From: Bacteroidota bacterium
GTDB lineage: Bacteria; Bacteroidota; Bacteroidia; Chitinophagales; Chitinophagaceae
NCBI GenBank assembly: GCA_028876495.1
Contig: JAGWRO010000089.1
Coordinates: 1-64,000, forward strand
DNA length: 64,000 nt
Direction of reading: 5' to 3'
Shown: positions 8,119-62,567 of the stretch, in pieces
Position numbering within the stretch: position 1 is the stretch's first letter
Layout of the letters: the number at the start of each line of letters is the position of its first letter
Program-made: the position numbers and the translations under genes
Notes under the pieces: model-generated
The model's input: only the letters and a program-made list of their open reading frames with translations
What the model was told of the DNA's origin: nothing
The model's database searches: none

Positions 8119-8123
8119 AAGAA

Positions 8124-9344: not shown

Positions 9345-9602
9345 AGATATAAACTCATATTCTTCTACAATAATAATGACAGCAGTAAAAGGACAAATAA
9401 TGAGGATTTTGATTTTGATAATACATTTCAAAGGAATAAATAAACAAACGTTCATGTAGTTAAATACAGATTGTTCTAAAACTTAAATGTATGAAACGTG
9501 TTATTTAGTTTTCTTATTTCAGGGTTTCTTAGAGAATTTACCGATTTCGCAAATTGAACCGATAAAATCAAAGGAAATTGCACGACTAAACTCCATATTC
9601 AA

Positions 9603-12328: not shown

Positions 12329-12377
12329 TGTTGCATAGGTTTCCTTGATACCTTTAAGTTGTTTAGAATGAATATTT

Positions 12378-14393
12378 ATGAAAAATAACAACGAACAAAA
12401 TCAAGATACAGTCCTTCAATTTGATGAACTAATAGAAGTTTCTGATAAAAAGCCGCGGTTAACGCCTGTTAAGGATGAAAAGCAGGTCCCTGAAGATAAT
12501 AATGGCAGCAACTATAATGCAGAGGTAACTTCCAATAAACCGGCATGGATGGAACATTTGAATTTATTAGCCGCATTATTCATCCTTGCTGTTTTATTGG
12601 TAATGGAATATGGTTTTAAAATAACTCTTCCAAAAACCTTATCATTCGCTATAAATTCTGTCGCTTATTTGCTGGCCGGTTGGAGTGTGTTGCACATGGC
12701 ATTTCGTAAAGCTAAAAGGGGGGATATTTTCAATGAGTTTGTTTTGATGAGCATAGCAACACTTGGCGCGTTTTACATCGGCGCTTATTCGGAAGGGGTA
12801 GCTGTAATGGTTTTTTATACTATTGGAGAATGGTTTCAGAATTCAGCGGTAAGGAGGGCAAAAGCAAGCATTAAAGCGCTGTTGGACATACGCCCTGATG
12901 AAGTAAATGTGATGCGAAATGGACAAACAGAAAGAGTTCATTCTTCCGAAGTGCAATTGGAAGAAATAATACAAATGAAACCCGGAGAAAAGGTTGCTCT
13001 TGACGGCGAACTAATTTCTGAAAGCTCATCGTTCAACACATCTGCACTTACGGGAGAAAGCAGGCCTGATACAAAGTATAAAGGCGAACAGGTATTAGCA
13101 GGAATGATTAATTTGAATACTGTATCAGAAGTAAAAGTTACTGCTTTATTTAAAGATAGTAAGCTAAGTAAGATTTTGGAGATGGTGCGGGATGCTACTG
13201 CCCGCAAGTCGCAGACACAATTGTTTATTTCACGATTTGCAAAAGTTTATACACCGATAGTATTTTTTCTTGCTTTGGCTCTTGTATTAATTCCTTACTT
13301 TTTTGTAGCCAATTATGTTTTTAATGAGTGGCTATACCGTGGGTTAGTTTTTCTGGTAATTAGTTGCCCCTGTGCATTAGTGGTATCTATTCCGTTAGGA
13401 TATTTTGGCGGAATAGGCCTTGCTTCCAGGAATGGCATACTGTTTAAAGGCGGAAACTTTATGGATGTAATGACGAAGGTGAACACCATTGTTATGGATA
13501 AAACAGGAACCCTTACAAAGGGTGTATTCAAAGTACAAAAAATTGTTGCAAATGGAATGGATGAGAAAGAGTTGATAAGGCTTACTGCTGCACTTGAAAA
13601 AAAATCAACGCACCCTGTAGCTAAAGCCGTGGTTGATTATGCAGGCAATATAAATGGCAATACTACTGTAACTAATGTAGAAGAAGTAGCAGGACATGGC
13701 CTGAAAGGAATTATTGATGACAAAAAAATACTTGCAGGAAATGCAAAACTGATGAAGAAATATAACATTAGTTTTCCTGATGAAATAGAAGAACTGGTTA
13801 ATACAGTTGTTTTAGTAGCCATTAATAATAAATATGCCGGATATATTACAATAGCCGATGAAATAAAAGAAGATGCAACTACAGCCATTAAAGAAATGCA
13901 CGAACTCAATTTAAGAACGGTAATGCTTTCCGGCGACAAACAAGTAGTAGTGAATGAGGTGGCAAGAGAACTTGGTATTGATGAGGCTTATGGAGACTTA
14001 TTACCCGAAGGAAAAGTGGAAAAAGTACAACAGATAAAACAAGAAGGAAAACACATTGCGTTTGTAGGTGACGGCGTGAATGATGCGCCGGTAATAGCTT
14101 TGGCTGATGTAGGAATAGCGATGGGCGGATTAGGAAGCGATGCTACCATAGAAACTGCTGATGTGGTAATTCAAAATGACCAACCATCTAAAATTGTTTC
14201 TGCCATTAAGATTGGTAAAATTACACGAAGTATTGTTTGGCAAAATATTAGTCTTGCCATGGGAATAAAAGTGATTGTATTAATACTGGGTGCTGGCGGC
14301 ATCGCCAATTTGTGGGAGGCCGTCATTGCTGATGTTGGGGTTGCATTGTTAGCAATTATGAATGCAGTAAGAATACAAAGGCTCAAATTGTAA
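12378..14393 (+). CDS. P1B-type heavy-metal translocating ATPase (Zn/Cd/Pb type)
   Basis: The 671-residue ATPase has the ion-path motif SCPCALV (about residue 330), the phosphorylation site DKTGTLTKG (Asp about 374), the HP dipeptide in KSTHPVAKAV and the hinge GDGVNDAP (about 564). TM8 contains IADVGVALLAI, whose Asp is diagnostic of the P1B-2 (Zn2+, Cd2+, Pb2+) group rather than the Cu+ group. The N-terminus is a short hydrophilic acidic segment of about 55 residues and contains no HMA (GMxCxxC) metal-binding domain, which is unusual. It should pump divalent soft cations from cytosol to periplasm, handing over to the RND system. Confidence 0.93.
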   Translation: MKNNNEQNQDTVLQFDELIEVSDKKPRLTPVKDEKQVPEDNNGSNYNAEVTSNKPAWMEHLNLLAALFILAVLLVMEYGFKITLPKTLSFAINSVAYLLAGWSVLHMAFRKAKRGDIFNEFVLMSIATLGAFYIGAYSEGVAVMVFYTIGEWFQNSAVRRAKASIKALLDIRPDEVNVMRNGQTERVHSSEVQLEEIIQMKPGEKVALDGELISESSSFNTSALTGESRPDTKYKGEQVLAGMINLNTVSEVKVTALFKDSKLSKILEMVRDATARKSQTQLFISRFAKVYTPIVFFLALALVLIPYFFVANYVFNEWLYRGLVFLVISCPCALVVSIPLGYFGGIGLASRNGILFKGGNFMDVMTKVNTIVMDKTGTLTKGVFKVQKIVANGMDEKELIRLTAALEKKSTHPVAKAVVDYAGNINGNTTVTNVEEVAGHGLKGIIDDKKILAGNAKLMKKYNISFPDEIEELVNTVVLVAINNKYAGYITIADEIKEDATTAIKEMHELNLRTVMLSGDKQVVVNEVARELGIDEAYGDLLPEGKVEKVQQIKQEGKHIAFVGDGVNDAPVIALADVGIAMGGLGSDATIETADVVIQNDQPSKIVSAIKIGKITRSIVWQNISLAMGIKVIVLILGAGGIANLWEAVIADVGVALLAIMNAVRIQRLKL

Positions 14394-17328: not shown

Positions 17329-19857
17329 ATGAAAGCATTTAATGCTGTTTTTACCTTTAAAAAAGAAATACTTTTTACTATTATGTGCATGCTGGCTACG
17401 CTTACTTTGCTGGCACAGCATCCCATAAAAGAATATACACTGGTCCTTCGGCAGCAAAAGGTAAACAAAGCGGGAGAATTGGTGAAAGCCATTACTGTTA
17501 ACGATTCTATTCCCGGGCCAACGCTCTATTTTACAGATGGTGATTCTGCTGTTATTCACGTAAAAAATGAAATGAGTGTGCCCTCTTCGGTTCATTGGCA
17601 TGGCATTCTTATTCCCAACTATTACGATGGCGTACCCTATTTGAGTACGCCGCCGATAGCGTCCGGAAAAACATTTACCGTACGTTTTGTCATCCGGCAA
17701 ACGGGCACTTACTGGTACCATTCTCACATGTCATTGCAGGAGCAAAGTGGTTTATATGGCGCTATTGTTATTTATCCCAAAAAAGAAACCCGAAAATATG
17801 ATACGGAAAAAACAATTGTACTTTCTGACTGGACAAATGAAAATCCGCATCATGTAATGAACAACCTGAAAAGAGGGTTGGAGTGGTATTCTATTAAAAA
17901 AGGACAGGCTCAAAGCCTCAACCGCGTAATAGCGCATCACGGCTTTGGTGAAAGATTCCAAATGGCCTGGCAGCGCATGCCACCGATGGATATTTCAGAC
18001 GTATATTATCCTGCCTTTTTAGCCAACGGGCATAAGGCTTTATATTTTCCCAATGCTAAGCCGGGAGAGCGTATCAGGTTGCGAATTGTGGATGGTTCTT
18101 CTTCTACTTTTTTTCATTTGCAATATGCCGGGGGCAACATGGAAATCATTTCTGCTGATGGGCAAGATGTAAAACCGGTAGCCGTTACCCGGATGTTGAT
18201 GGGAGTTGCCGAAACCTACGATGTTATTATTACTGTTCCCGAAAATGGGCAATACGAATTACGCGCCACCGCGCAGGATGGCGCTGGCTACACTTCTTTA
18301 TATTTTGGAAATGGGCAAAAACATGCTGCGCCTACTTTACCCAAACCGGACGTGTTTCATCTGGAAGGCATTTTGATGCAGGGAATGGCCGGGATGAAAA
18401 TGGACATGAATGGCATGAAAATGTATATGAGCAAAAAAATGATGCAACGCGAAATGCCTTATATCAATAAAGCTTTTATAGACAGGGAGGATATTAACCT
18501 GGCAGGCTCGCTGGGCATGCAAATGCCCGGCATGGATATGAAAGGCATGGATATGGGCGGGATGGATGGCATGAACATGAACGGAATGGACATGAAGGAT
18601 ATGAAGATGGATAGTTCAGGAATGGGCAATATGAACGGCATGGACATGAAGAATATGAATATGGATAGCTCAATGGGCAATATGAATGGAATGGACATGA
18701 AAGATATGAAGATGGATAGTTCAGGTATGAGCAACATGAATGGAATGGACATGAAGGGTATGAATCATTCAGAAATGGGCAATATGCATGGAATGGATAT
18801 GGGACAGGAAGGCAGCGAAGATTCGGTCATATTTAATTACGATATGCTTCGTGCATTGCAATCTACTAATTTTGATACCACCAAACATCCAGTGCGCAAT
18901 CTTACATTTAACCTTACCGGCAGCATGTGGCGATACATTTGGAGTATTAATGGTAAAACACTTTCAGAAAAAGATTCAATACAGGTAAAAGAAGGTGAGA
19001 TATTGCGTATTACCATGAAGAACCAAACCATGATGTACCATCCCATGCACCTGCACGGGCATTTCTTTAGAGTGTTGAATGCAGACGGAACTTATTCACC
19101 TTTAAAACACACAGTGATTGTACCACCGATGCGTACAATAACTATTGAATTTTTGGCAGATGAAGTGGGGAATTGGTTCTTTCATTGCCATATCCTTTAT
19201 CACATGATGGCTGGTATGGCCCGCAGTTTCCAATACAAAAATTATGAAGCGCCACCGATAATGAAAAACTATCCCATGAGTAAATTGTTCAACGATGACA
19301 ATCATTGGTTTTTCTGGGGCAACGCCACTGTGGCATCCAATCGTGAAGGAGGCTATTTATCATACTCAAACCGAAAAAATTGGGTGCAGGTGATGGGCGA
19401 TTACAGCGCATGGCAAAAGGGCAAAAGCTATAAAACCTCTCCCGGCTGGTTAAAATCGGCACATCCGTATGAAGTTACCGGAACTTACGAACACTTTGTA
19501 ACGCGTTTTTTAAGGCCTTATGTGGGTGTAGTAGCCAGCAACCAGGATGAATACACCAAATATTACATAGACCACAACAAACCGGTTCCGAAGAATGATG
19601 TAAGAGGTTTGGTGGGGGTGCGTTACCTGTTGCCTCTGTTTTTAAACGCAGATTTAAGAATTGATTCTCGGGCGCATGTACGCTTTGCCATGAGTGGCGA
19701 AACCTGGCTTTTTCCACGGATATGGCTTACTTATATGGCCAATACCGACAAAGAATACGAAGCCAATTTAGAATATATGCTCAGTCAGCGTATCTCATTG
19801 ACAGGCGGCTACAATTCTGACTATAATTGGGGTGGCGGTGTAATGGTGAGGTTTTAA
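17329..19857 (+). CDS. Multicopper oxidase (CopA-like) with Met-rich insert and C-terminal beta-barrel-like domain
   Basis: The 842-residue protein has a signal-like start (residues about 12-30) and cupredoxin domains with all copper motifs: SVHWHG (about residue 88-93), WYHSHMS (about 130), HPMHLHGHFF (about 571) and HCHILYHMMAGM (about 618). A Met/Asp/Gly-rich insert spans residues 397-492. After the last oxidase domain, residues about 660-842 form amphipathic strands and end in GGGVMVRF, like the terminal strand of an outer-membrane barrel. The CopB-like content here suggests a CopA-CopB fusion. It should oxidise Cu(I) or an organic substrate in the periplasm. Its partners are the DUF3347 and haem proteins just upstream. 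Confidence 0.9.
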   Translation: MKAFNAVFTFKKEILFTIMCMLATLTLLAQHPIKEYTLVLRQQKVNKAGELVKAITVNDSIPGPTLYFTDGDSAVIHVKNEMSVPSSVHWHGILIPNYYDGVPYLSTPPIASGKTFTVRFVIRQTGTYWYHSHMSLQEQSGLYGAIVIYPKKETRKYDTEKTIVLSDWTNENPHHVMNNLKRGLEWYSIKKGQAQSLNRVIAHHGFGERFQMAWQRMPPMDISDVYYPAFLANGHKALYFPNAKPGERIRLRIVDGSSSTFFHLQYAGGNMEIISADGQDVKPVAVTRMLMGVAETYDVIITVPENGQYELRATAQDGAGYTSLYFGNGQKHAAPTLPKPDVFHLEGILMQGMAGMKMDMNGMKMYMSKKMMQREMPYINKAFIDREDINLAGSLGMQMPGMDMKGMDMGGMDGMNMNGMDMKDMKMDSSGMGNMNGMDMKNMNMDSSMGNMNGMDMKDMKMDSSGMSNMNGMDMKGMNHSEMGNMHGMDMGQEGSEDSVIFNYDMLRALQSTNFDTTKHPVRNLTFNLTGSMWRYIWSINGKTLSEKDSIQVKEGEILRITMKNQTMMYHPMHLHGHFFRVLNADGTYSPLKHTVIVPPMRTITIEFLADEVGNWFFHCHILYHMMAGMARSFQYKNYEAPPIMKNYPMSKLFNDDNHWFFWGNATVASNREGGYLSYSNRKNWVQVMGDYSAWQKGKSYKTSPGWLKSAHPYEVTGTYEHFVTRFLRPYVGVVASNQDEYTKYYIDHNKPVPKNDVRGLVGVRYLLPLFLNADLRIDSRAHVRFAMSGETWLFPRIWLTYMANTDKEYEANLEYMLSQRISLTGGYNSDYNWGGGVMVRF
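18517..18804 (+). repeat. Degenerate Met-rich tandem repeat inside the multicopper oxidase
   Basis: This stretch encodes residues 397-492 and repeats units such as NMNGMDMKDMKMDSSGM about four times with small changes. About one residue in three is Met. Met-x-x-Met arrays bind Cu(I) in CopA/CueO-type oxidases. At DNA level the units are near-identical, so the array can expand or contract by slippage. Confidence 0.85.
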
Positions 19858-35877: not shown

Positions 35878-38209
35878 ATGCAAACACACAACTTAGGTTA
35901 CCCGAGGATTGGTAGCCAACGTGAACTCAAAAAAGCCTCCGAACTGTATTGGTCGGGAAAGCTGACTGTACAGCAATTATTGCAAACGGGCAAAACCATT
36001 CGCCAACAAAATTGGCAACTGCAAAAGGATGCAGGTATTGATTTGATACCCTGCAACGACTTTTCTTTTTACGACCAGGTGCTTGACATTAGCCTGATGG
36101 TTGGGGCAATTCCTGAAAGGCATCATATCTTAATGCAGGACAAACAATTGCCCGAAATTGATTTGCTTTTTGCAATGGCAAGGGGGTATCAAAAAGATGG
36201 CTACGATGTTACCGCTATGGAAATGACAAAATGGTTCGACACTAATTACCATTACATCGTTCCTGAATTTACCGCTAATCAAAAATTTACATTGTATTCA
36301 ACCAAAGTAATTAGCGAATTTATTGAAGCAAAGCAAAGTGGATTTAATGCAAAGCCTGTATTGTTAGGCCCTGTTTCATATCTATCTATTAGGAAAGGAA
36401 AAAGAAGAAGGTTTTCATCGTCTTGAACTGATAAAAAACTTATTGCCTGTTTATTTGGAAGTGTTGAAAAGATTGGATGATGCTAATGCTAATTATATTC
36501 AGTTTGATGAACCTTGTCTTTCGTTAAATCTTACCGAAACAGAACGACAGGTTTTTATCAAAACCTATCAGGAAATAAAAAATAAGTTTCCTCACCTGCA
36601 CCTCATTTTAGCAAGTTATTTCGAATGTTACGGACAAAACCTGCAAACAGCATTGAGCTTGCCCGTACAAACTGTACATTTGGATTTAGTACGTTGTCCA
36701 TCGCAATTAAATGATATTTTGGCAAGTGATTTTGTAAAAACAAAAACTAATCTTTCGTTGGGTGTTGTTGATGGGAGAAATATTTGGAAAAATGATTTTC
36801 AACATTCGCTTTCATTAATAAATAAAGCTGTTGAAAAAATCGGAGCAGAAAGAGTTTGGATAGCTCCATCCTGTTCATTGATACATTCGCCATGCGATTT
36901 GGATTTGGAAACAAATGAACAAACATTAATCCCCGAAATAAAACAATGGCTTGCATTTGCCAAACAAAAAATTGATGAGGTGGTAACACTGAAGCAATTG
37001 GCAAGCAGCGAAAATTCAGAAACGGCAAATATAAAATTGCAGGAAAATATCCGTGCCAATGAAAGCCGTAAAACATCCACACTGATTCATAATAAAAAGG
37101 TGAAACAGCGTGTGGCTGCCATTACTGAAAAAGATGCACAACGTATAAATGGTTTTTCAGTACGAAAAATAGAACAACGTGAAGCCCTGCATTTACGGAT
37201 GTTTCCAACTACTACCATTGGTTCATTTCCGCAAACAACCGAAGTAAGAAATTGGAGAGCTAAGTTTAAAAAAGGAGAACTGACACAAGAGCAATACGAT
37301 GAACTAATTGCAAAGGAAACAGCAGAAGCAATCCGCTGGCAGGAAGAAATTGGTATTGATGTGCTGGTACATGGTGAGTTTGAACGCAACGATATGGTGG
37401 AGTACTTTGGCTAACAATTAGAAGGTTTTGTTTTCACTAAAAATGGCTGGGTACAAAGCTATGGCAGCCGTTGTGTAAAGCCGCCTGTCATCTATGGTGA
37501 TGTAAGCCGCCCTTCACCTATGACAGTAAGATGGTCGACCTATGCCCAATCATTAACAAAACAAATAGTAAAAGGAATGTTGACGGGGCCGGTAACCATA
37601 TTGCAATGGAGTTTTGTTCGCAACGACCAGCCACGCAGCGAAACCTGTACGCAGATTGCATTGGCTATCCGTGACGAGGTAGTTGATTTGGAAAAGGCAG
37701 GAATAAAAATAATACAGATTGATGAACCCGCTATTCGTGAAGGCTTGCCATTGCGTAAAGAAAACTGGCAGGAGTATTTACAATGGGCTGTTCATGCATT
37801 TCGTATTTCGGCAAGTGGTGTGCAGGATAAAACACAAATCCATACACACATGTGCTATTCCGAATTTAACGATATCATCCAAAACATTGCTGACATGGAT
37901 GCGGATGTAATTACGATTGAGTGTTCCCGTTCGCAAATGGAATTGTTAGATGCGTTTGCGGATTTTAAATACCCCAACGAAATAGGTCTTGGTGTATATG
38001 ACATCCATTCTCCACGAGTTCCTTCAAAAGCAGAAATGGTAGCATTAATGGAAAAAGCAAAAGCTGTTATTCCGGCCGGCCAGCTTTGGGTAAATCCCGA
38101 TTGTGGATTGAAAACCCGCCATTGGGATGAAACAAAAAAAGCATTAATAGAAATGGTTAAAGCTGCAAAAGAATTGCGACTATTAATTCATCAATCCACA
38201 GTTTTATAA
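35878..38209 (+). pseudogene. metE: Cobalamin-independent methionine synthase, broken by a frameshift and a nonsense codon
   Basis: The N-terminal part (LGYPRIGSQRELKKASE) reads to GPVSYLSI and then leaves frame near 36380-36392, where TATCTATCTATTA looks like a CTAT duplication or one-base insertion. The next frame resumes at LLGKEKEEGFHRLELIK and continues. At 37412 the expected EYFGEQL reads EYFG then TAA, a GAA-to-TAA change. The rest is intact: [17 protein letters not shown] and NPDCGLKTR supply the His, Cys, Glu and Cys zinc ligands. Both lesions are needed to explain the break. The original enzyme transfers methyl from 5-methyl-THF (polyglutamate) to homocysteine. Confidence 0.93.
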
Positions 38210-45796: not shown

Positions 45797-46828
45797 GTGG
45801 GCAAAGAAAAGACTATAGAAAATTATTCTTTAATTCGACAGCCCTACCGCATTACAATGGCCCGTTGGGATTTTTCTGTTTTGCAAAAAAGGATAATGAC
45901 GAAAATTATTTCCAAATTACAGAGAGAAATAACACTTCTTGAAAATGGGGCTGAATTCGGTCAGTTGGAATTATTTAGGAATGTCATTGATAATTCAGAT
46001 ACAATAAAACTTCATTTTTTACTTAGTGAGTTTGTAAAGGATAGTAATAATTATGTTCAATTCAAGAAAGCCATTAATCAGTTACGTTCTATCAATGTAG
46101 AAATCTTTCAAATTGTTTTGCCTGCTGTAAAAAGTAAAAAAGCAAAAAAGCCTGAAGAAGAATTAATCCTGACCGGCCTGATAGAAAGGGCAGTTATTAA
46201 AAAATATGCAAGAGATATAACCATTTCATTGCATAAAGCAACTGCGATGGAATTAATTAAGACTGCTAATGGGTTAACAGCTTTTGCAGAAAATGTGATG
46301 TATGAAACCAATAATAAATACACTCAAAAGATTTATGAAATAATATGCCAATGGAAAGATATTGGAGTTTATACATTGGCAATAGAAAAATTCAGGGAAT
46401 TACTTGTATTAGAAAATAAATATCCCGAAACTAAAATATTGATCAGAAATGTTATCAGGCCAACAGAAGTTGAATTAAAAAAAATCGGAGATGTGTTTTT
46501 TGATTTCAGTGTAACAAAAAGAGGAAATATAATTACTCATTTCAATTTTATCATTAAAACAAAAGATTGTCTCAAAAAACAAAACGAACATCTTATTCTT
46601 GTTAAAGAAGACACAATCAATTTACTTCGCCAGCACTTTGGTTTTAAAACCATCCATCTGGAGCAAATTAAACCTGTTTTAGGTGATTTCAGTAATATCC
46701 CAACACTTAGGAGTAAGTTAACAGAATTGGCTCTAAAATCAGCCGATAGAAAGTTGAGTTGCCAACCTATAAAAGATGTTCCAGCCTGGACAGTTAGAAG
46801 TATTTTAAATGAATTTCATATAGATTAA
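45797..46828 (+). CDS. Rep_3-family plasmid replication initiator
   Basis: The protein is 343 residues from GTG 45797. It has the two-winged-helix layout of Rep_3/RepB initiators: LIRQPYRITMARWDFSVLQK (start of the first domain), ALKKIGDVFFDF-like strands and a second domain with LAIEKFRELLVLENKYPETK and VIRPTEVELKKIGDVFFDF. A series of 22-bp iterons lies about 160 bases downstream, the expected binding site. It should open a theta origin. No partition function is in the protein; ParA lies further on. Confidence 0.9.
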   Translation: MGKEKTIENYSLIRQPYRITMARWDFSVLQKRIMTKIISKLQREITLLENGAEFGQLELFRNVIDNSDTIKLHFLLSEFVKDSNNYVQFKKAINQLRSINVEIFQIVLPAVKSKKAKKPEEELILTGLIERAVIKKYARDITISLHKATAMELIKTANGLTAFAENVMYETNNKYTQKIYEIICQWKDIGVYTLAIEKFRELLVLENKYPETKILIRNVIRPTEVELKKIGDVFFDFSVTKRGNIITHFNFIIKTKDCLKKQNEHLILVKEDTINLLRQHFGFKTIHLEQIKPVLGDFSNIPTLRSKLTELALKSADRKLSCQPIKDVPAWTVRSILNEFHID

Positions 46829-50428: not shown

Positions 50429-51145
50429 CTAAACTTTTGCTATTTCCCTTTTAATGATAGTCCTGGCGGCAAATGAATGGTAGAATGAAAACCCCATTCC
50501 GTTTCGAATGTTTTCTGTAACTATTTGCCCTGAATTTCTATCCACATGGATATCGCCAAATCGTACAACCCTGGAAATATATCCCTTAGCTTTTTTGGCG
50601 AATTCATTTAATTCATCAATCAAAAGATTGTAATTCTGAAAGGTCAGTTCATTGAGATACATAACTATCTCAAATTTGCCTTTGACGATTTCAATAAGCT
50701 TTTTCAGGTACTCAAAAGTGCTTGCATAAGAGGTGCCTCCACAAAGGATAACATTGAATACAAATTTTGCCTTTAGTTCTTTTTCAAATTCTTTGAATTC
50801 TTCTATTGTGAAATCCAATGAAAAAAGCGAAGGAAGTTGTTCGCTTTCCGGTGCGCCAAAGTCAATATAGATCTCTTCAAAGGGCTGCGAATTAAAAGCC
50901 TGTAAAACATCGTAAAGTTTTTCACGTTCAATCTTTTTCAGGTTATCAAAAATGTCAACAGAAAACAGCCTGTTAGCTTCCTGTCTGGTTAAAAAAGCAA
51001 GCTGCCTGGTTGAGGTTTGGGTGGAGCTATCGAGGTCAACAAATGCTGCCTTTTCATTTTTTTCATGTTTAAGGGCCTGTAGATAGGTGAGCATTGATTT
51101 GCCTGCCCCGCCTTTACTTTGAATATTGAAATAAAATGACTTCAT
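50429..51145 (-). CDS. parA: ParA-family ATPase
   Basis: The 238-residue protein has the deviant Walker A motif SKGGAGKSMLTY (Lys11 and Lys16), AAFVDLDSSTQTS (switch I, motif A') and IYIDFGAPES (switch II). The rest folds like ParA/MinD proteins. It should act in plasmid partitioning by moving on the nucleoid. It is followed by the membrane-protein, lipoprotein and Toprim genes with spacings of 1-11 bases, and the gene upstream of it is the likely DNA-binding partner. Confidence 0.85.
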   Translation of the reverse strand: MKSFYFNIQSKGGAGKSMLTYLQALKHEKNEKAAFVDLDSSTQTSTRQLAFLTRQEANRLFSVDIFDNLKKIEREKLYDVLQAFNSQPFEEIYIDFGAPESEQLPSLFSLDFTIEEFKEFEKELKAKFVFNVILCGGTSYASTFEYLKKLIEIVKGKFEIVMYLNELTFQNYNLLIDELNEFAKKAKGYISRVVRFGDIHVDRNSGQIVTENIRNGMGFSFYHSFAARTIIKREIAKV

Positions 51146-51198: not shown

Positions 51199-51570
51199 TT
51201 ATTTAATCAGCTTAATAAGTGTTTTGTTCTGTTTCAGTGATTCAGCATCGGAAGGTTTAAAGGTTTCCCATTCTTCGGATTGTTCAGCAACTTTTTCCGG
51301 TCTTGATTTTTCAACCTGAAGTAAGGATGTTCGTGCTGAAATAAAAGACCTGTTTTTTTTCTTGTATCGTTGAAGCCATGACCAAAAGGTTTTCCGGTTA
51401 ATGGCTGCATCAGGAATTGAAAACCTATCAATGATATTTTTTAAAAGTATCCGGGGTTTGGCGCTAAGAATTTCCTCCTTTGAATAAACGGCATCAATCA
51501 AATCAAATTTGCCATAACCAGAAGATAATATTCTCTCCCTTATTTTAGCATCGCTTATTTTATCTTTCAT
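51199..51570 (-). CDS. Putative partition partner (unknown, ParB-like position)
   Basis: The 123-residue protein is helical: DAKIRERILSSGYGKFDLID, then FSIPDAAINRKTFWSWLQRY and a basic tail ending TLIKLIK. The middle part resembles a small DNA-binding domain (FWSWLQRYKKKNRSF). It lies 53 bases upstream of parA, in the position of a ParB- or centromere-binding gene. The assignment is by position and length only. Confidence 0.5.
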   Translation of the reverse strand: MKDKISDAKIRERILSSGYGKFDLIDAVYSKEEILSAKPRILLKNIIDRFSIPDAAINRKTFWSWLQRYKKKNRSFISARTSLLQVEKSRPEKVAEQSEEWETFKPSDAESLKQNKTLIKLIK

Positions 51571-51831
51571 AATAATACTTTAATGAATAAGAAGTGCAAA
51601 TATAGTTAATAAAGTATTAAATAATAGTTCCTGAATAATTTTTTTTAAAGTTTGTTGAAGACAATTAGATGTTAATGAGGATATTTAAAGCCTGATGCAG
51701 ACAATTGCAGATTATAAGAGGAATATCAGGAGAATAATTAAATACAAATGCAGATTAATACATACCAATAAAGAGTTTCAAGGATTAATTATTTTTTTAA
51801 TAAAGGAACCCTGAAAAAAAAGTAGCCAGGA
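51571..51831. other. Divergent intergenic region upstream of the partition and mobilisation genes
   Basis: About 260 bases contain no gene. Two near-copies of AGACAATTAGATG / AGACAATTGCAGATT lie at about 51658 and 51696 and may be partition or regulator sites. The mobilisation oriT candidate follows. Confidence 0.35.
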
Positions 51832-51885
51832 CAAGATGTGTCTTTGTCTTTACATTCCAAAGACTATCTTGCCCGCTGAGGCGGG
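51832..51885 (+). other. Candidate origin of transfer (oriT) with IncP-like nic region
   Basis: An imperfect inverted repeat (CAAGATGTGTCTTTG at 51832-51846 and CAAAGACTATCTTG at 51858-51871) leads directly into CCCGC-TGAG-GCGGG (51872-51885), a perfect 5-bp hairpin. The joint CTATCTTG/CCCGCTGA resembles the IncP (RP4) nic region CTATCCTG/CCCGGCTGA, predicting cleavage between 51871 and 51872. It lies 90 bases upstream of the mobC-mobA genes, where oriT is expected. Confidence 0.75.
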
Positions 51886-51934
51886 GAAATAAAATTATTC
51901 GCAACTCTGTTTATTAATATAAATTATTAAACTA

Positions 51935-51942
51935 TAACTTTG
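51935..51942 (+). promoter_or_regulatory. Candidate promoter -7 element (TAACTTTG) for mobC-mobA
   Basis: TAACTTTG matches TAnnTTTG and lies 19 bases ahead of the mobC ATG. It is a plausible start of the mobilisation transcript. Confidence 0.45.
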
Positions 51943-51960
51943 GTTAATAATTATAGTATT

Positions 51961-52317
51961 ATGAAGGAAGCCCGGATACAAGTGAACTTTAGAATGACGA
52001 AAGGTTTGAAAGAAAAATTGAAACAGCAAGCAAGCGAAATGAAAGTTTCAATGCGAGAAGTGATTGAGCATAAAATTGAAAACACACCCATAGTAGATCA
52101 TAGAATGAAAAATGAAAAATTCCTGGCAATACATACACTTTGCAAAGAGATTAATTACATTGGAAAAAACATCAATCAAATCACTATAGCGATACGCCAA
52201 ATAAAATCTGACAGGAAAATAGAAGATGGAGAATTTTTAATGCTGATTCGGGAATTGAAAAATTATAATGAAAAGAGAAATGAGATCAGTGAGCTACTTG
52301 GGAAAAATTTATTCTAA
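51961..52317 (+). CDS. mobC: MobC-like relaxosome accessory protein
   Basis: The 118-residue protein starts at ATG 51961 (MKEARIQVNFRMTKGLKEKL). A ribbon-helix-helix-type N-terminus (IQVNFRMTKGLKEKLKQQAS) is followed by LHTLCKEINYIGKNINQIT-like helices, the signature of MobC/BmgB relaxosome proteins. It should bind near nic and help the relaxase. It lies 2 bases before mobA. An in-frame ATG is absent upstream within the transcript. Confidence 0.85.
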   Translation: MKEARIQVNFRMTKGLKEKLKQQASEMKVSMREVIEHKIENTPIVDHRMKNEKFLAIHTLCKEINYIGKNINQITIAIRQIKSDRKIEDGEFLMLIRELKNYNEKRNEISELLGKNLF

Positions 52318-52319
52318 GA

Positions 52320-53483
52320 ATGAAAAGTGCCATCTTTAAAATAATGCCTGCGGCAGGGAGCCGCTTTAATGCAGTGAATTATAATGAGAAGAAAGTAAAA
52401 CAAGGGAAAGCAGGGCTTGTTTATTTTGAAAACTTCGGAAATCTTCAGGACAGATCACAAATATCAAAGGAGGAATTTAAAAAATATCTACAGAATTATT
52501 CTGGCAGAAATACTAGAATAAAAAATCCGGTATTTCATGCAACGTGTAGTTGCAAAAACAATGAATTAAGCCATGAACAATTAAAAGAAATTGCTTTAAA
52601 TATTACCCAGCAATTGGGTTATGCAGAAAACCCTATCATGATTTATGAGCACCATGATACAAAGAATAACCATGTTCATATTGTATCCAGCCGGGTTGGA
52701 ATTAATGGCAAGAAGGTCAACGATAGTTTTGAAGGTAAAAGAGCGAACCATTTTCTTAATGCGATTTTAAACAGAGAACCCCACCAGGAATTTAATCAAC
52801 ATTTGAACTCTGCATTGACTTATAAATTTGGGACTCACGCTCAGTTTTGTTTGCTTATGGAAATAAACGGGTATAAAGCTCAAAAGACCAAAGACCAATT
52901 ATTATTTTTCAAACATGGGGAACAACAAGGGTTTGTTCAATTGTCAGACCTTGATAAAAAAATTGTGATAACCGAAAAATCAGGGAAAAATATTAATCAG
53001 ATAAAAGCTATTATTTATAAATATAGAAAACAGTATTCGGGCAAACTGCAAAGCAACCACGATATTAAATTCACGACAGAACCTACGAAGTTTGAAAGCG
53101 ACTTGACTAATCTATTAAAACAAAAATTTGGTTATGATTTTATTTTTTTCTCTGGAAAAAATAAGGATATACCTTATGGCTATGTTTTTATAGATCATAA
53201 TAAGAGAGAAGTTTACAAGGGAAGCGATTTATTGAAGCTTGATCTACTTATTTCTGACGTAGTTAACAAGGAAAAAACTTCTTTTTCTAAATCAGGAGGC
53301 TATATATACACTAAAACTGTGAACGAAAATAGTATAGCATATTTTCATCCGGAGATTGAGTTCAAAAGTGAAATGCAATTAGGTAACATTTTAAGTGATT
53401 TCCTGGAAGAAGTTGAAAGAGCAAATTACCTGGGTAATGGGCGGCCGAGGAACAAACGAAATAGAACGCGAAAAGGGATTTGA
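52320..53483 (+). CDS. mobA: MobA-type relaxase (MOBP family)
   Basis: The 387-residue protein has the relaxase motifs: Tyr21 in FNAVNYNEKK (likely nicking Tyr), the IYEHHDTKNNHVHIVSSRV metal-binding motif (about residues 112-130) and a motif II Ser region (NPVFHATCSC). The C-terminal half is basic, with a Lys/Arg-rich tail (NRTRKGI). It should nick oriT 450 bases upstream and lead the strand into the recipient. The IncP-like nic region fits a MOBP relaxase. Confidence 0.9.
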   Translation: MKSAIFKIMPAAGSRFNAVNYNEKKVKQGKAGLVYFENFGNLQDRSQISKEEFKKYLQNYSGRNTRIKNPVFHATCSCKNNELSHEQLKEIALNITQQLGYAENPIMIYEHHDTKNNHVHIVSSRVGINGKKVNDSFEGKRANHFLNAILNREPHQEFNQHLNSALTYKFGTHAQFCLLMEINGYKAQKTKDQLLFFKHGEQQGFVQLSDLDKKIVITEKSGKNINQIKAIIYKYRKQYSGKLQSNHDIKFTTEPTKFESDLTNLLKQKFGYDFIFFSGKNKDIPYGYVFIDHNKREVYKGSDLLKLDLLISDVVNKEKTSFSKSGGYIYTKTVNENSIAYFHPEIEFKSEMQLGNILSDFLEEVERANYLGNGRPRNKRNRTRKGI

Positions 53484-54158: not shown

Positions 54159-54440
54159 ATGAATACAAAAATGGGGATACATCAAGTATTGGATATTATG
54201 CCAACAGGAAGTTTACCGGAGATCAATTCATCTTTTAAACATGAAATATGGCCGCTTCTAAAAATGCTTTGTTATGCAATTGCAGCCATGTTGGGACTGA
54301 TTGCCGGATTGCGTATATATAATCTTTGGAACGTGAATGGAAGGCATCATGTGCATATTGACGCCCAGGTGATTTCATGGGGCGCGGCTGCTATATTTTT
54401 AGTTGTAGCGACTGCATTTATTAATGTGGCATTAATGTAA
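54159..54440 (+). CDS. DUF4134/TraE-like pilin-type membrane protein, copy 1
   Basis: The 93-residue protein has a short N-terminal part and two spans: IAAMLGLIAGLRIYNLW and AAAIFLVVATAFINVALM. The stretch between ends HIDAQVISWGAAAIFLV. DUF4134 (TraE in Bacteroides elements) has this two-span layout with a (H/N)xxI(D/N)xxxxxWGGA-type turn and is held to be the pilin-like subunit. This is the most divergent of three copies in a row and lacks the signal peptide. Confidence 0.75.
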   Translation: MNTKMGIHQVLDIMPTGSLPEINSSFKHEIWPLLKMLCYAIAAMLGLIAGLRIYNLWNVNGRHHVHIDAQVISWGAAAIFLVVATAFINVALM

Positions 54441-54445
54441 ATGAA

Positions 54446-54658
54446 ATGAAGCTATTGGATATTGGAATTGATTATGGGGACTTGTCCGCATTGATTCTGA
54501 CAATTGGAGGTTGCCTTGCACTGGTGGGAGCTGTAGTCATTTATAAAAAATGGAGTATGGGCAACCACAATATTGAAAATGAAGTGCTGATGTGGGCAGG
54601 AGGTATAGTAATGCTGATCATTATCCAGGTTTTTATTAAAGTAATGTTTGGAATGTAA
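54446..54658 (+). CDS. DUF4134/TraE-like membrane protein, copy 2 (short)
   Basis: The 70-residue protein keeps only the two spans (LILTIGGCLALVGAVVIYKK and LMWAGGIVMLIIIQVFIKV) with the joining NHNIENEVLMWAGG turn. It lies 5 bases after copy 1 and has no signal peptide. It resembles copy 3 in the turn (NIENEVLMWAGG against EIQKEIIGWGGA). Confidence 0.75.
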   Translation: MKLLDIGIDYGDLSALILTIGGCLALVGAVVIYKKWSMGNHNIENEVLMWAGGIVMLIIIQVFIKVMFGM

Positions 54659-54760
54659 CGTTGGTTTTTCCCGGATAGAATGATTAAGAATGAACTGTCC
54701 TATTGAAAAATAGCTTCTTTAAAGATAGGTTTCGATTTTTTAATTATTAAACAATTATTT

Positions 54761-55096
54761 ATGAACAAAATGCAAAATCAAATCGGAAAGAAAAAGATTA
54801 TTTTCTTTTTCCTGGTTGCCTTACTTGGTATTATTCCGGGGATCGCTGATGCTGGTAACTTATTGGATATTAATAGTGGTTTAACCCAGGCGGCCACTAC
54901 TATTAATGGCACTTATGACCTGGTGTCAAAACTATGCCTTGCTATTGGAGCCATAGTCGGTCTTGCCGGTGGTATTCGGGTTTATGTGAAGTGGAATAAC
55001 GGAGACCATGAAATTCAAAAAGAAATTATCGGCTGGGGTGGCGCTTGTGTATTCCTGCTCTTAACAGGAACGGTTCTCAACGTATTTTTTGCTTAG
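54761..55096 (+). CDS. traE: DUF4134/TraE pilin-like protein, copy 3
   Basis: The 111-residue protein is the canonical DUF4134 form. It has a signal peptide (IIFFFLVALLGIIPGIADAG), then ATTINGTYDLVSKLCLAIGA, a first span, GGIRVYVKWNNGDHEIQKEI and GWGGACVFLLLTGTVLNVFF. TraE proteins are the proposed VirB2-like pilin of Bacteroidota transfer systems. It is separated from copy 2 by 102 bases and from traF by a hairpin. Confidence 0.88.
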   Translation: MNKMQNQIGKKKIIFFFLVALLGIIPGIADAGNLLDINSGLTQAATTINGTYDLVSKLCLAIGAIVGLAGGIRVYVKWNNGDHEIQKEIIGWGGACVFLLLTGTVLNVFFA

Positions 55097-55141
55097 GACT
55101 AACACTAAAAGCCTCAAAACTAAAGTTAGGGTTAGGGTGCC

Positions 55142-55182
55142 GGGAGGGTATTTAAAAGAATTTTATTTACCCTCCCTATTTT
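55142..55182 (+). terminator. Hairpin between traE and traF (terminator or attenuator)
   Basis: GGGAGGGTA (55142-55150) and TACCCTCCC (55168-55176) form a perfect 9-bp stem with a 17-base loop, followed by TATTTT. In an operon this is likely a partial terminator that lets traE messages exceed those of downstream genes. Confidence 0.6.
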
Positions 55183-55207
55183 AAAAACCGGATCAGAAAT
55201 TATAGCC

Positions 55208-55489
55208 ATGCAAACACAAGAATACGCAATTTACAAAGGGTTACAACGTCCTTTGGTATTTAAAATGTTCAAAGGAAAATTCATTTATTACGCAGCAGGC
55301 GTATTGGTTGGAGGAATTATTATCGCAGGTCTTATAACAGCCATCATTTCAAGCATAGTGGGGCTCGTAGCGCTTTTTATTCTTACAGTACCAGGTTTGC
55401 TATATGTGCTCAATAAACAAAAAGATGGCCTTCATGGTAAAAAAAGAGAAAAGGCAATATTCATTCACAAACCGGTTTTTAGAAAATAA
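55208..55489 (+). CDS. traF: DUF4133/TraF conjugation protein (VirB3-like)
   Basis: The 93-residue protein starts YAIYKGLQRPLVFKMFKGKF and has two spans (AAGVLVGGIIIAGLITAIIS and VGLVALFILTVPGLLYVLN), ending with a basic tail (RKREKAIFIHKPVFRK-like). The order just before the TraG ATPase, and the two-span VirB3 layout, define TraF in Bacteroidota transfer modules. Confidence 0.9.
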   Translation: MQTQEYAIYKGLQRPLVFKMFKGKFIYYAAGVLVGGIIIAGLITAIISSIVGLVALFILTVPGLLYVLNKQKDGLHGKKREKAIFIHKPVFRK

Positions 55490-55507
55490 AAATTGAAGTA
55501 ATTTATA

Positions 55508-57970
55508 ATGAAAAGGAAAGAATTTATAAAACCGTTTATACGCATAGAGGAAGAAATACCGGGATGTAATGTGGTATATAGCAGCACCGGTAGTTTATCA
55601 CTCATTATACAAATTTTTAACCTCTCTCCCCAGTATTGTGCCGATGCTGAAAATTATGAAAATTATCACCTGCTGTTCGGACAGATCGTTAAATTATTGG
55701 GTGATGGCTACATCCTTCAAAAGACAGATATAATAGCCTCTCAAAAATATTCAAAAGACAAGAGCCGTATAACCGATTATTTGTCCAAAAAATATTTTGA
55801 GCATTTTGAGAATAGAATATACAAGGAAATCACCACCTACTTAACCATTACTAAAGAATCCGCTAAGGGGCATCTCTTCAGTTACGATGGAAAATCATTA
55901 AAAGATTTTTTAGATAAAGCCAATAAAATTGTTGACACGATAAAGAGTCAAAAAATTGCCTGCTGCTTATTAACAAAAAAAGAGGTTGAGGCTCTTTATA
56001 ACAGGTATCTCGCATTTAATTTTTCAGATAAAAAATTTTCGATTGGTAATCTTTCATGCGATGAAAAAGGCATCTATTATGAAGATAAAAGCATAAAATC
56101 CATTTCCCTGGTTGATATAGACGAAATCAACCTGCCATCAAACGTTACCACCTTTACAGTTAGCCAGGATATAGGGAAAACATTTCCTGTTGATAATCTT
56201 GCATTTCTTCTCACGGTAAACGCAGATACCATTTTATACAACCAGGTAATAAAAATACCGGATCAACGCAAACTGAAAACGGAACTCGAATTGAAAAAGA
56301 AAAGGCATTCATCCATGCCGGATCCTGCCAACGACTTATCAGTAGCAGACATAAATGATATGTTTGTTGACATAGCACAAAATAACGAACTGCTGGTTTA
56401 TGCTCACTATAATATTATCGTATGTGATACTAAAGACAGAATAGAAAAAGCAGTCAATGCAGTTGAAAACAGTTTATTCTCTGTAGGAATCATTCCTGGT
56501 AAAAACACTTACAACCAATTGGAATTATTCCGGAGTGCAATTCCCGGGAATGCGGAAGAATTAAAAGAGTATGATCTGTTCTTAACCAGCCGCCCTGCGG
56601 CGATATGCTTCCTTTTTAAAGAAACGCTGCCCGAATCTGATAAATCAGATTATCAATTATGGTTCACTGACAGACAAGGGCTTCCTATTGCAATTGACAC
56701 CAGTGAATTACCAATGTTTACCGGGAGGATTTCTAACAGAAACCGGTTTATACTCGGCCCTTCCGGAAGTGGAAAATCTTTTTTTACGAATTCTTATGCA
56801 AAGCAATGCAGGGAATTGGGTGCAGACATTGTGCTTGTTGATACAGGTAACAGTTACTATGGCCTGTGTAAATATTTTGGCGGCAAGTATATCACCTATA
56901 CAGAGGAAAAGCCAATCACCATGAACCCATTTAAAATAGAAGCCATTGAAAACAATGAGGAAAAACGACAAATATTAAAAGAACTTATCGGGCTTATATG
57001 GAAAGGGGTAGATGGAAAATTATCGCAGGTAGAAGATGATATTTTGACAAAAACAGTTACCAACTATTATAGTGATTATTTCGGAAAAAAGGAGAAAGTA
57101 ATCCGATTGTGTTTTGACACATTCTATGAGTTTAGCTGCCGGGAAATTGAATCCATCATGCAGGATGAAAGAGTACGTTTTGACCTTGATGAATTCAGGT
57201 TTATTCTCCAAAAGTTTTATAAGGATGGCATTTATGATAAAATCTTAAATGATGAATTTGATAATACGCTTTTTAGTGAAAGTTTTATCGTTTTTGAAAT
57301 TGATAATATCAAAGAACACAAGCTTTTATTTCCCATAACAACGTTGATTATTATGGATGTTTTTATTCAAAAGATGCGCCACAAGAAAAACAAGAAAGTG
57401 TTGATTATTGAGGAAGCCTGGAAAGCCATTGCCTCGCCAATGATGGCGGGTTATATCCTTTACCTGTATAAGACGGTAAGAAAATTTGCCGGAGAGGCCA
57501 TAGTTGTAACCCAGGAACTGGGGGACATTATCGGAAACGCCATTGTGAAAGATAGTATCATCAGCAATTCCGATACTATTTGTTTACTGGATCAAACAAA
57601 GTTCAAAGACAATTTCTCCCAGATAGCCCAATTACTATCACTCAGTGAAGTAGAGCAGAACAAAATTTTTACCATTAATAAATTAGATAACAAAGATAAC
57701 AGGAGCCGGTTTAAAGAAGTATATATCAAACGTGGAGCTACCGGTGAAGTATATGGAGTGGAAGTGCCCATTGAAGAATACCTGACCTACACAACAGAGC
57801 GAAGTGAAAAAGAGGCGCTGCAGATTTACCTGGATTTTTTCGAAAAATATGAAAATGCAATGGACCATTTTGTCTCAGACATGAAAGGTAGCGGATTACA
57901 ACTTCCTGCCTTTGTAAAGGAAATCAATAAAAGAGAAACTATTTATACAAAATTAAAAATAGTGTTATGA
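55508..57970 (+). CDS. traG: TraG conjugation ATPase (VirB4-type)
   Basis: The 820-residue ATPase has an N-terminal VirB4 domain (KPFIRIEEEIPGCNVVYSST) and a C-terminal motor with Walker A RFILGPSGSGKSFFTNSY (about residues 416-424) and Walker B KVLIIEEAWKAI (about 631). VTQELGDIIGN follows, as in VirB4 motif D. It powers substrate and pilin handling in the T4SS. Its end overlaps the next gene start by 4 bases, so translation is coupled. It is a full-length family member with no visible lesion. Confidence 0.93.
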   Translation: MKRKEFIKPFIRIEEEIPGCNVVYSSTGSLSLIIQIFNLSPQYCADAENYENYHLLFGQIVKLLGDGYILQKTDIIASQKYSKDKSRITDYLSKKYFEHFENRIYKEITTYLTITKESAKGHLFSYDGKSLKDFLDKANKIVDTIKSQKIACCLLTKKEVEALYNRYLAFNFSDKKFSIGNLSCDEKGIYYEDKSIKSISLVDIDEINLPSNVTTFTVSQDIGKTFPVDNLAFLLTVNADTILYNQVIKIPDQRKLKTELELKKKRHSSMPDPANDLSVADINDMFVDIAQNNELLVYAHYNIIVCDTKDRIEKAVNAVENSLFSVGIIPGKNTYNQLELFRSAIPGNAEELKEYDLFLTSRPAAICFLFKETLPESDKSDYQLWFTDRQGLPIAIDTSELPMFTGRISNRNRFILGPSGSGKSFFTNSYAKQCRELGADIVLVDTGNSYYGLCKYFGGKYITYTEEKPITMNPFKIEAIENNEEKRQILKELIGLIWKGVDGKLSQVEDDILTKTVTNYYSDYFGKKEKVIRLCFDTFYEFSCREIESIMQDERVRFDLDEFRFILQKFYKDGIYDKILNDEFDNTLFSESFIVFEIDNIKEHKLLFPITTLIIMDVFIQKMRHKKNKKVLIIEEAWKAIASPMMAGYILYLYKTVRKFAGEAIVVTQELGDIIGNAIVKDSIISNSDTICLLDQTKFKDNFSQIAQLLSLSEVEQNKIFTINKLDNKDNRSRFKEVYIKRGATGEVYGVEVPIEEYLTYTTERSEKEALQIYLDFFEKYENAMDHFVSDMKGSGLQLPAFVKEINKRETIYTKLKIVL

Positions 57971-60773: not shown

Positions 60774-61907
60774 ATGGAAACCTTATCTATATTCCTTGAC
60801 ATACCTAATAAATTCTGGGATCAGAATATTATGGATCTCATTCATGGAATCCAGATGCAATTAGGTTCCGGAGAATTTATAACAATAGCTAAAGAAATTG
60901 CTGCGGTTTTAAGTTTGATCTATTTATCAGTAAAAGCATATGCCATGATACTTGGTGATGGAAGACTGGAGATAATGCAACTTTTCCGGCCCTTCCTCAT
61001 TACACTCGTTATCGTGAATTTCGGATTATATGCGGGCGTTGCAGGAGGACTGGGTAATGCGGCTGCCAAAACAGAGGAAGGTTTGTTTAAAGCCAATGCA
61101 AGCCACATGGATGATTTAATGTTTTCAAAAGATTCTTTGAGTACCACATTCTGGACAAGAATATTGGACAGTACCAGTCAAATCCGGAACCAGATTTCAG
61201 AACAGGACAACCTCAATTCAGATAAAGTGATAGATGCCGGTGACCCCAATTGGTTGGTAGGCGGTGTTTCAAAGGCGGTAGCTCATGCTCAGAATGCAAT
61301 CGGTTCTTACATTACTATTTATGAACAATTAGCGTGGGCAAAACTTTCGATGTGGCTTCAGGGATTAATTGAAAGTATCGCACTTTCCATTTTTAAGGGG
61401 ATTGCTTACTGCCTGTTTTTTATACAAATGGTACTGATGCATATTCTTTTAATTCTTGGGCCAATCTCATTTGCATTGAGCATTGTCGGGGCGTTCAGAG
61501 ATTCATGGGTTCAATGGACGGCAAGATACATCGCCGTTTCATTTTATACAGCTATAGGAATGATAGTGCTGAATATGGCCATCCTGATCATCTCTTATGG
61601 TATGCAGCAGGAAATCTCACGAATGCAGCAAATTTTAGACAAAGCTATAGGCCCTGATTTTTATCAATCGGTTATACATATTGACAACTTTCTTGGATAC
61701 CTTCTGATTGGACTATTAGTAGCAGTCGGCGGCATTATGGCGGTACCAATGGTTTCAGGATGGATCGTCGGAGGAGGTGACAGTGGAAGTGTAATGCATG
61801 CAACAGGAGTGGCAGGTGCCAAAACAGGTATGAAGGTAGCTTCAGGTGCTGCTGCCAGTAAGATTGACGCAGTCAGAAGTAGCTTTAAACTCAAAAGGAA
61901 TCTATAA
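60774..61907 (+). CDS. traJ: TraJ conjugation protein (VirB6/TrbL-like)
   Basis: The 377-residue protein has several spans: IAKEIAAVLSLIYLSVKAYA, FLITLVIVNFGLYAGVAGGL, then LFFIQMVLMHILLILGPISF and IAVSFYTAIGMIVLNMAILI. It ends with a Gly/Ala-rich basic tail. Polytopic layout and position after the exported proteins match TraJ of Bacteroides transfer systems, the inner-membrane channel component. Confidence 0.88.
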   Translation: METLSIFLDIPNKFWDQNIMDLIHGIQMQLGSGEFITIAKEIAAVLSLIYLSVKAYAMILGDGRLEIMQLFRPFLITLVIVNFGLYAGVAGGLGNAAAKTEEGLFKANASHMDDLMFSKDSLSTTFWTRILDSTSQIRNQISEQDNLNSDKVIDAGDPNWLVGGVSKAVAHAQNAIGSYITIYEQLAWAKLSMWLQGLIESIALSIFKGIAYCLFFIQMVLMHILLILGPISFALSIVGAFRDSWVQWTARYIAVSFYTAIGMIVLNMAILIISYGMQQEISRMQQILDKAIGPDFYQSVIHIDNFLGYLLIGLLVAVGGIMAVPMVSGWIVGGGDSGSVMHATGVAGAKTGMKVASGAAASKIDAVRSSFKLKRNL

Positions 61908-61946
61908 TAATTTTTTAAAAAATTAATTAACTATAAAAATAAGTGT

Positions 61947-62567
61947 ATGGCATTTATAAAAAATATTGAGGCGAAAATGAAGATGGCTCTTTGGATTGCT
62001 ATCGCATCTATGCTTACTTCAATAATAGTCAGTGCCCTTGCTTTTTCTTATTCAAAAAAGATGATTACAGAAGAAAGAAAGCATATTTATGTATTAGATA
62101 AAAACATCCCGCTGGTAGCAGTCAGTACTAACATTGAGGACAACAGGGAAGTAGAGTACAAAGCAGATGTAGAAACTTTTCATCAGCTTTTTTTTACCCT
62201 TCCACCGGATGATAAATTTATTGAAAACCAACTGCAAAAGGCAATGTACTTAATTGATGCTTCTGGGATAGCGCAGTATAATACCCTTAAAGAAAAAGGG
62301 TATTATACCAATCTCGTTGCAACAAGCAGTATCAGCACTTGTACCATGGATAGTATTCAGCTTGATATGAATACAGGACATTTTATTTTCTATGGCAAAC
62401 AGAAGATTCAACGACCGTCCATGATAACCATTCGCTCCCTTATCACAGAAGGCTGGCTGATTGATCAGCCCCGAACAGATAATAATCCTCATGGAGTTTT
62501 AATTACCAAATGGAAGACTCTTGAAAATAAAGATTTAGAAAATGAAGCTAAAAAACTTTTTCAATAA
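61947..62567 (+). CDS. traK: TraK conjugation protein (VirB8-like)
   Basis: The 206-residue protein has a short cytosolic part, one span (MALWIAIASMLTSIIVSALAF-type, residues about 12-32) and a periplasmic domain of the VirB8 class (YKADVETFHQLFFTLPPDDK, DSIQLDMNTGHFIFYGKQ). TraK organises the inner-membrane complex. Its 3' end overlaps the next gene by 26 bases, a tight coupling. Confidence 0.88.
   Translation: MAFIKNIEAKMKMALWIAIASMLTSIIVSALAFSYSKKMITEERKHIYVLDKNIPLVAVSTNIEDNREVEYKADVETFHQLFFTLPPDDKFIENQLQKAMYLIDASGIAQYNTLKEKGYYTNLVATSSISTCTMDSIQLDMNTGHFIFYGKQKIQRPSMITIRSLITEGWLIDQPRTDNNPHGVLITKWKTLENKDLENEAKKLFQ

Follow-up and report, generated by a model that had tools for sequence, protein, structure and literature searches.

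Genes around the site

The window, that is, the whole stretch of 64,000 nucleotides analysed here, contains at 51832-51885 a group of repeats located between a TraL/ParA-like ATPase gene (50429..51145, minus strand) and the mobC (51961..52317) and relaxase (52320..53483) genes, both on the plus strand. The relaxase, of 387 residues, is assigned to the MOBP type by its match to the MobA/VirD2-like family PF03432, which exceeds the curated cut-off (78.7 vs 24.6 bits). Residues Tyr21, His73, His111, Asp113, His118, and His120 are invariant in 11 aligned relaxases, including TraI of the IncP-1 plasmid pBS228. Tyr21 is presumably the nicking residue, the catalytic roles of the Tyr and His residues being taken from the family. 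A phmmer search against solved structures returned nothing at E ≤ 1. MobC, a relaxosome accessory protein, resembles NikA-like proteins with 19.9 bits, under the Pfam cut-off of 27; among 15 aligned MobC proteins, 13 match the NikA-like family and 13 the MobC family (Pfam, E ≤ 0.01). The TraL/ParA-like protein matches PRK13886 TraL at E 4.2e-6 with 26.3 bits, far under the cut-off of 360, and has no Pfam match.

Farther along the plus strand, genes for two DUF4134 proteins and a TraG/VirB4 ATPase of the Bacteroidota conjugative apparatus (54159..57970) are followed by TraJ-like and TraK-like genes (60774..62567; Bac_Flav_CT_J under its cut-off, Bac_Flav_CT_K over it). A TraM-like gene crosses the window end (contig 63057-64355) and, beyond the window, a DUF4138 protein (contig 64375-65244) and a coupling protein (contig 65348-67279) are encoded. 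A Rep3-type replication initiator (45797-46828) is found in the same region as the transfer genes and the sole integrase match on the contig is at 111751; the element carrying this initiator could be either a plasmid or integrated. Judged by eye from the list of open reading frames (ORFs), three successive ORFs at 35878-38209 resemble one broken methionine synthase gene of the metE kind, and ORFs at 3787-14393 and 17329-19857 resemble a metal-efflux RND pump, a P-type ATPase, and a multicopper oxidase.

Architecture of the site

In direct reading, the site comprises the outer arm CAAGAT (51832-51837), the inner-stem arm GTCTTTG (51840-51846), a loop of 11 nt (51847-51857), longer than that of most relatives, the second inner-stem arm CAAAGAC (51858-51864), the heptamer TATCTTG (51865-51871) directly after this inverted repeat, and a perfect 5-bp GC hairpin, CCCGC-TGAG-GCGGG (51872-51885). 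The initial annotation had proposed an oriT made of these last pieces, and all of them are present beside mobC and a relaxase gene of the MobA/VirD2 family. Its distance of 90 bases to mobC is also right, when counted from 51871 to the ATG at 51961. The CAAGAT arm pairs with ATCTTG (51866-51871), forming an outer palindrome (51832..51871) with the nick core within the dyad. As single-stranded DNA, 51825-51890 folds at -14.9 kcal/mol, compared to -6.1 (sd 1.75) for shuffled sequences (z -5.03; none of 200 shuffles as good), into the 6-bp outer stem, the 7-bp inner stem and the 5-bp GC hairpin. The string CAAAGACACATCTTG recurs as an exact copy in locus L059 and in a Chryseobacterium plasmid (L086); the window's own genome has no other place with fewer than two mismatches to it. 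Taken with the comparisons described below, these features make it very probable that a MOBP-type Bacteroidota conjugative element has its oriT here.

Relatives of the relaxase and of its site

Relatives were collected through the relaxase. Within the family, 81 of 195 genomes have a match at E ≤ 0.001 (own genome counted); at E ≤ 1e-20, matches occur in 4 of 348 genomes of the order, 9 of 395 of the class and 8 of 395 of the phylum (own genome counted each time). A search of genome contigs with the single relaxase protein gave only three distant loci. In a plasmid collection, the relaxase search returned 105 records. Regions were fetched around 24 of the plasmid matches and, together with the loci from the genome searches and from the single-protein contig search, make up 70 loci, several of which are near copies of each other. 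The fetched records of 17 of these 24 plasmids are typed as non-mobilizable in the collection; each of the 17 has a site that matches the oriT model described below or was used in its training. At the DNA level, 161 bases searched against the plasmid collection at E ≤ 10 gave 67 records, the best 20 listed having E values from 0.1 to 5 and being mostly AT-rich pieces. No relative was confirmed in viral contigs. Two faecal records of a phage collection filed as Bacteriophage sp. (MT837113.1 and MT836073.1) encode a relaxase 36% identical and may be plasmids. In the plasmid pBFY46, mobC and the relaxase gene are separated by an IS1182-like insertion, ISBf3 (L040 996-2657).

A covariance model was built from the aligned sites of 24 relatives. 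The window was excluded from it, and one site from another contig of the same genome (L003) was included. In this alignment, the structure is supported by the base pairs counted, 10 of 15 having changed on both sides; the covariation reaches 0.311, compared to 0.133 (sd 0.016) in shuffled alignments and equalled in none of 500. One of five measures, the number of further pair types, stays within the shuffles (20 vs 17.1; 53 of 500). If the partners are shifted by one column, the share of paired cells drops from 83.9% to at most 55.2%; a shift of +1 still leaves a covariation of 0.286, since the inner stem is out of register by one in some rows. A search of the 64-kb window with the model puts the minus strand of 51828-51888 first (34.1 bits, E 5.9e-8), the runner-up having E 0.034; at E ≤ 5, the site does not appear in its plus-strand reading. 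The inner stem-loop (51840..51864, read on the minus strand), whose arms covary in relatives, is a probable relaxase recognition hairpin.

The presence of motif and stem on that strand partly guided the choice of training sites; it played no part in that of the held-out loci and of the other loci of the genome. Conservation beside homologous relaxase genes is borne out by the held-out loci: the model matches 35 of these 45 at E ≤ 1, the weakest best match having E 0.013, with L052, L049, L043, L053, and L088 being near copies of training loci (the last two alike). In each of these 35 loci, the best match lies on the strand opposite to the relaxase gene and 494 to 1409 nt upstream of it. Because the oriT unit is palindromic, 11 of the 35 also show a second match of lower score on the relaxase strand, and the margin between strands can be small (20.7 vs 19.2 bits in L026; 24.4 vs 20.0 in L006). 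Ten held-out loci have no match at E ≤ 1 (L007, L008, L009, L010, L016, L029, L034, L056, L057, and L060). Widening the flanks of L056, L057, and L060 brought out opposite-strand matches in two of them, one at 1.7 kb upstream with E 2.7e-5 (L109) and a weak one some 2.2 kb upstream with E 0.025 (L110); the third (L111) gave no match of note. For the other seven unmatched loci and the IncP-1 control L090, an unfiltered search gave at best 10.7 bits, the L007 site reaching 10.3.

The genome itself contains five PF03432 relaxase matches, on contigs C24, C28, C30, C78, and C90, and each of them is preceded, at 480 to 552 nt, by one oriT match on the opposite strand (C30, E 1.3e-10; C78, 4.3e-6; C28, 3.5e-4; C24, 0.019; C90, 0.16). 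The C30 site belongs to the training set and the others do not; the C90 match is weak and cut by the contig end. A further match lies close to the contig end on C47, and this DNA is found again where C90 begins. Overall, the genome has at least seven model matches at E ≤ 1, with 150 of 2173 first-look candidates scored. C28 and C90 carry a variant core, GCTTG, with a matching outer arm. A weak oriT-like match at C78:138195-138251 (plus strand; L105 4196-4252; 20.7 bits, E 0.044) has ATCCTGC and CAGGAT arms, with no PF03432 gene nearby; it may be either an orphan site or a chance match.

Strand of the predicted nick

The most conserved motif in the relatives is ACATCTTG/Y (slash, cut position), on the strand opposite to the relaxase gene. 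The unit that the relatives conserve is 5′-[stem-loop]-ACATCTTG/Y, opposite to mobC and the relaxase gene. Every YATCYTG on both strands of the 70 loci was checked for a stem directly 5′ of it. On the opposite strand, within 1300 nt upstream of the relaxase match, a stem is found beside 31 of 41 ACATCYTG and 2 of 30 other YATCYTG; the corresponding figures are 0 of 2 and 8 of 24 on the relaxase strand, and 4 of 20 and 2 of 158 elsewhere in the loci. Sites combining motif and stem number 39 (63 loci), compared to 0 to 7 in 20 Markov shuffles. Since these stem statistics use sites partly chosen for the motif, the held-out test of the model was added.

In the window, the minus strand reads CAAAGAC-ACATCTTG/TC. 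The inverted repeat (51858-51864 with 51840-51846) is thus located 5′ of the predicted nic region, ACATCTTG/T (51831..51839, minus strand), which is part of the model match; the predicted cut falls at 51832/51831, at a distance of 8 nt from the inner stem. On the opposite strand of the relatives, the gap is mostly 1 or 2, which puts the cut 8 or 9 nt after the stem. The cut is followed by T in the window and in L004, its nearest relative, and by C in 24 of 24 aligned relatives; a T at this place fits the MOBP consensus as given in passages of PMC3772185. CATCTTG/T fits YATCCTG/Y at 7 of 8 positions, and the ATCTTG core is present in 21 of the 24 aligned relatives. In one locus (L005 1041-1100, L113 8447-8502), the unit is downstream of the relaxase gene and on the coding strand. 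In this single case, side and strand have flipped together, so that the relaxase gene is still behind the cut and the polarity is kept.

The initial annotation had placed the nick on the plus strand, at 51871/51872. This placement is not sustained by the relatives, which conserve ACATCTTG/Y on the other strand and have a variable plus-strand spacing. The plus-strand CTATCTTG/C (51864..51872), 7 nt from stem to cut and devoid of a model match at E ≤ 5, is probably not a working nic; CTATCTTG/CCCG is the mirror arm of the same palindrome as the minus-strand nick core. A palindrome over the nick core can place a nic-like string on both strands, which explains the earlier reading. Of the 8 relaxase-strand sites, 7 mirror an opposite-strand site (L001, L003, L004, L023, L024, L031, and L045).

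Outer arm and GC hairpin

The outer helix is 92.9% paired in the 24 relatives. At 27 of 32 sites (window included), at least 5 of the 6 bases outside the inner stem are complementary to the nick core, compared to a mean of 0.065 and a maximum of 1 in shuffles; these sites, too, were partly selected for carrying the motif. The exceptions are L041, L062, L087, L007, and L058, L062 being a stem-boundary artefact in which CAAGAT is present. The arm changes with the core in L040 (CGAGGT:ATCTCG), L041 (CAGGGAT:ATCCTG, one extra base), L046 (CAAAGTT:AACTTG, one extra base), L109 (CAAGTT:AACTTG) and, in the genome itself, C28 and C47/C90 (GCAAGC:GCTTGC); the double changes of the outer helix within the 24-site alignment rest on single sequences. 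L004 is a counter-example, with CAGGAT:ATCTTG and one wobble. Four plasmids (L038, L044, L050, and L054) keep, or nearly keep, the 3′ arm and the core and differ on the 5′ side.

The nick core pairs with an outer arm, and in several lineages the two have changed together. This is the less ordinary feature of the site and merits specialist attention. If the arm co-evolved with the core, the single transferred strand would fold with nic double-stranded. We tentatively suggest, as a possibility that we hold somewhat short of even, that the MOBP-type oriTs of Bacteroidota make up a family whose nick core is enclosed in a palindrome of its own, with a co-evolved outer arm (CAAGAT:ATCTTG and the pairs given above for L040, L041, L109, and C28), and in which such folding of the transferred strand would serve as a signal for the end of transfer, guard the site, or let either strand be cut. 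In the open-access papers searched, no description of this oriT family or its outer arm was found.

Beside the outer arm, the GC hairpin (51872..51885) lies on the side that would be transferred last if the minus strand is nicked. Of 26 sites, the window counted, 10 have a stem of 5 or longer here, closing a loop of no more than 8, compared to a mean of 1.1 and a maximum of 5 in shuffles; 13 of the 26 are without a stem of even 4. The second hairpin recurs in position and not in sequence, which implies that CCCGCTGA is not a conserved part of nic.

Proposed mechanism and alternative readings

We consider it highly probable that the window dyad is an oriT at which the relaxase cuts the minus strand after ACATCTTG (51832/51831), so that the TraL/ParA side enters first. 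The comparison of relatives shows the site, its strand bias and its co-variation; the cutting, the protein binding, the direction of transfer and any role of the outer pairing are inferred, as follows. MobC and the relaxase would bind the dyad between the TraL/ParA-like gene and mobC, the inner stem-loop being recognised by the relaxase. Tyr21 would then cut the minus strand between 51832 and 51831, and the relaxase would stay on the new 5′ end, to be pumped with the strand through the TraG-type apparatus. The side of the TraL/ParA-like gene is predicted to be transferred first, and mobC, the relaxase gene and the tra genes would come last. In the single strand, the CAAGAT arm would pair with the nick core, which may assist in recognising where transfer ends or in keeping the site closed.

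In another possible scheme, the oriT is nicked on the plus strand, at CTATCTTG/CCCG (51871/51872), and mobC, the relaxase gene and the tra genes enter first. The string there is one base away from CTATCCTGCCCG of RP4 and stands beside a stem, a relaxase-strand YATCYTG with a stem also lies upstream of the relaxase match in 8 of the 70 loci, and 11 of the 35 matched held-out loci have their lower second match on that strand. However, the gaps at the eight plus-strand sites are variable (0, 2, 0, 4, 3, 3, 2, 4) and the other loci of the 70 have no such site. Moreover, the plus strand of the window gives no model match there at E ≤ 5, the two strands of the L113 palindrome score 52.7 and 26.2, and the resulting polarity would oppose that of IncP-1. 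Plus-strand nicking thus appears very unlikely.

It could also be imagined that the palindrome is only an operator through which MobC autoregulates mobC and the relaxase gene, the oriT being elsewhere. The dyad is just upstream of mobC and, according to passages of PMC4175270, MobC of RA3 represses its own promoter beside oriT. An operator would, however, be expected to show symmetric halves, whereas the most conserved part is a one-sided MOBP-type nick core; in L005, whose mobC position was not located, the unit is downstream of the relaxase gene. A role as operator alone appears very unlikely; operator and oriT functions could coexist. Finally, the strong fold of 51825-51890 would suit a transcription terminator or an RNA element formed by the GC hairpin and the dyad. 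Neither strand of 51560-52000 has a terminator-like site, 51500-52100 has no Rfam match at gathering scores, and a terminator gives no place to the strand-specific conservation of ACATCTTG, which leaves this last explanation with an almost negligible probability.

Minus-strand nicking within an oriT of a known kind, strongly supported by comparison and with the strand of the nick corrected, thus appears to account best for the site. With a strand-aware model of this oriT family, one can predict for plasmids and integrated elements of Bacteroidota where transfer starts, where the cut is likely and in which direction the DNA moves. The case also illustrates a trap: in a palindromic site, nic-like strings can occur on both strands, and a choice guided by RP4 likeness alone falls on the wrong one.

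Comparison with known systems

The initial annotation had stressed the resemblance to the nic site of RP4. CTATCCTGCCCG with at most one mismatch occurs once in the window, at the site itself (expected 0.10; at least one match in 10 of 100 shuffles). The likeness of the plus-strand CTATCTTGCCCG was rejected as proof, being expected 0.10 times per window and not conserved in relatives. What stands of the resemblance is the near-fit to the MOBP consensus; the CCCGCTGA part belongs to the local GC hairpin, whose sequence is not conserved. The RP4 likeness amounts to the known MOBP nick rule and layout. Passages of PMC3772185 give the consensus (C/T)ATCCTG(C/T) with an inverted repeat for RP4 TraI and VirD2 and apply it to a Helicobacter element, so that agreement of nic sites across phyla was already known. 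A conserved nicking rule and a shared ancestor had been offered as alternatives, which they are not: the relaxases do align around the same Tyr and His residues, but the oriT model has no credible match in IncP-1. For the control L090, no match was obtained at E ≤ 1, and the unfiltered best (9.8 bits, E 0.64, 4607-4639) is away from the nic near 2521; no sequence relationship over the whole oriT was found with the RP4/IncP-1 oriT proper.

In layout, the oriT of IncP-1 (pBS228) resembles that of the window. An inverted repeat is located 5′ of nic, 8 nt separate stem and cut (CTTCAC-CTATCCTG/C), the core is YATCYTG/Y, and the oriT adjoins relaxosome and relaxase genes, the latter on the strand opposite to the nicked one. 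In pBS228, traJ and traI are behind the cut, in the same order as in the minus-strand reading of the window, and therefore enter last. In contrast, the core is ATCCTG in IncP-1 and ATCTTG in the window, and the IncP-1 repeat stops before the nick core, whereas that of the window extends over it via the outer arm.

Among elements of Bacteroidota, the closest known systems include Bacteroides conjugative transposons of the CTn341/CTnDOT kind (mobABC): a conserved oriT, an inverted repeat and a nick site of CTn341 are mentioned in passages of PMC5729914, and nick positions are known for some mobilizable elements of Bacteroidetes according to parts of PMC5704250. No published Bacteroides nick sequences for comparison were found in the open-access papers searched. 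The mobA-mobB-mobC locus L085 (Parabacteroides) has an upstream, opposite-strand model match (E 0.0011), the window relaxase being only 23% identical to its MobB in the alignment. Also comparable are the Bacteroides plasmids pBF9343 and pBFY46 and related plasmids of Pontibacter, Adhaeribacter, Persicobacter, and Chryseobacterium, which carry mobC and a relaxase gene, often with ParA and DUF4134. The ParA-like gene, where annotated, follows the relaxase gene in these plasmids, whereas in the window, L085, and L087 it is on the other side of the oriT and divergent. The oriT unit of the window is present in these plasmids on the same strand.
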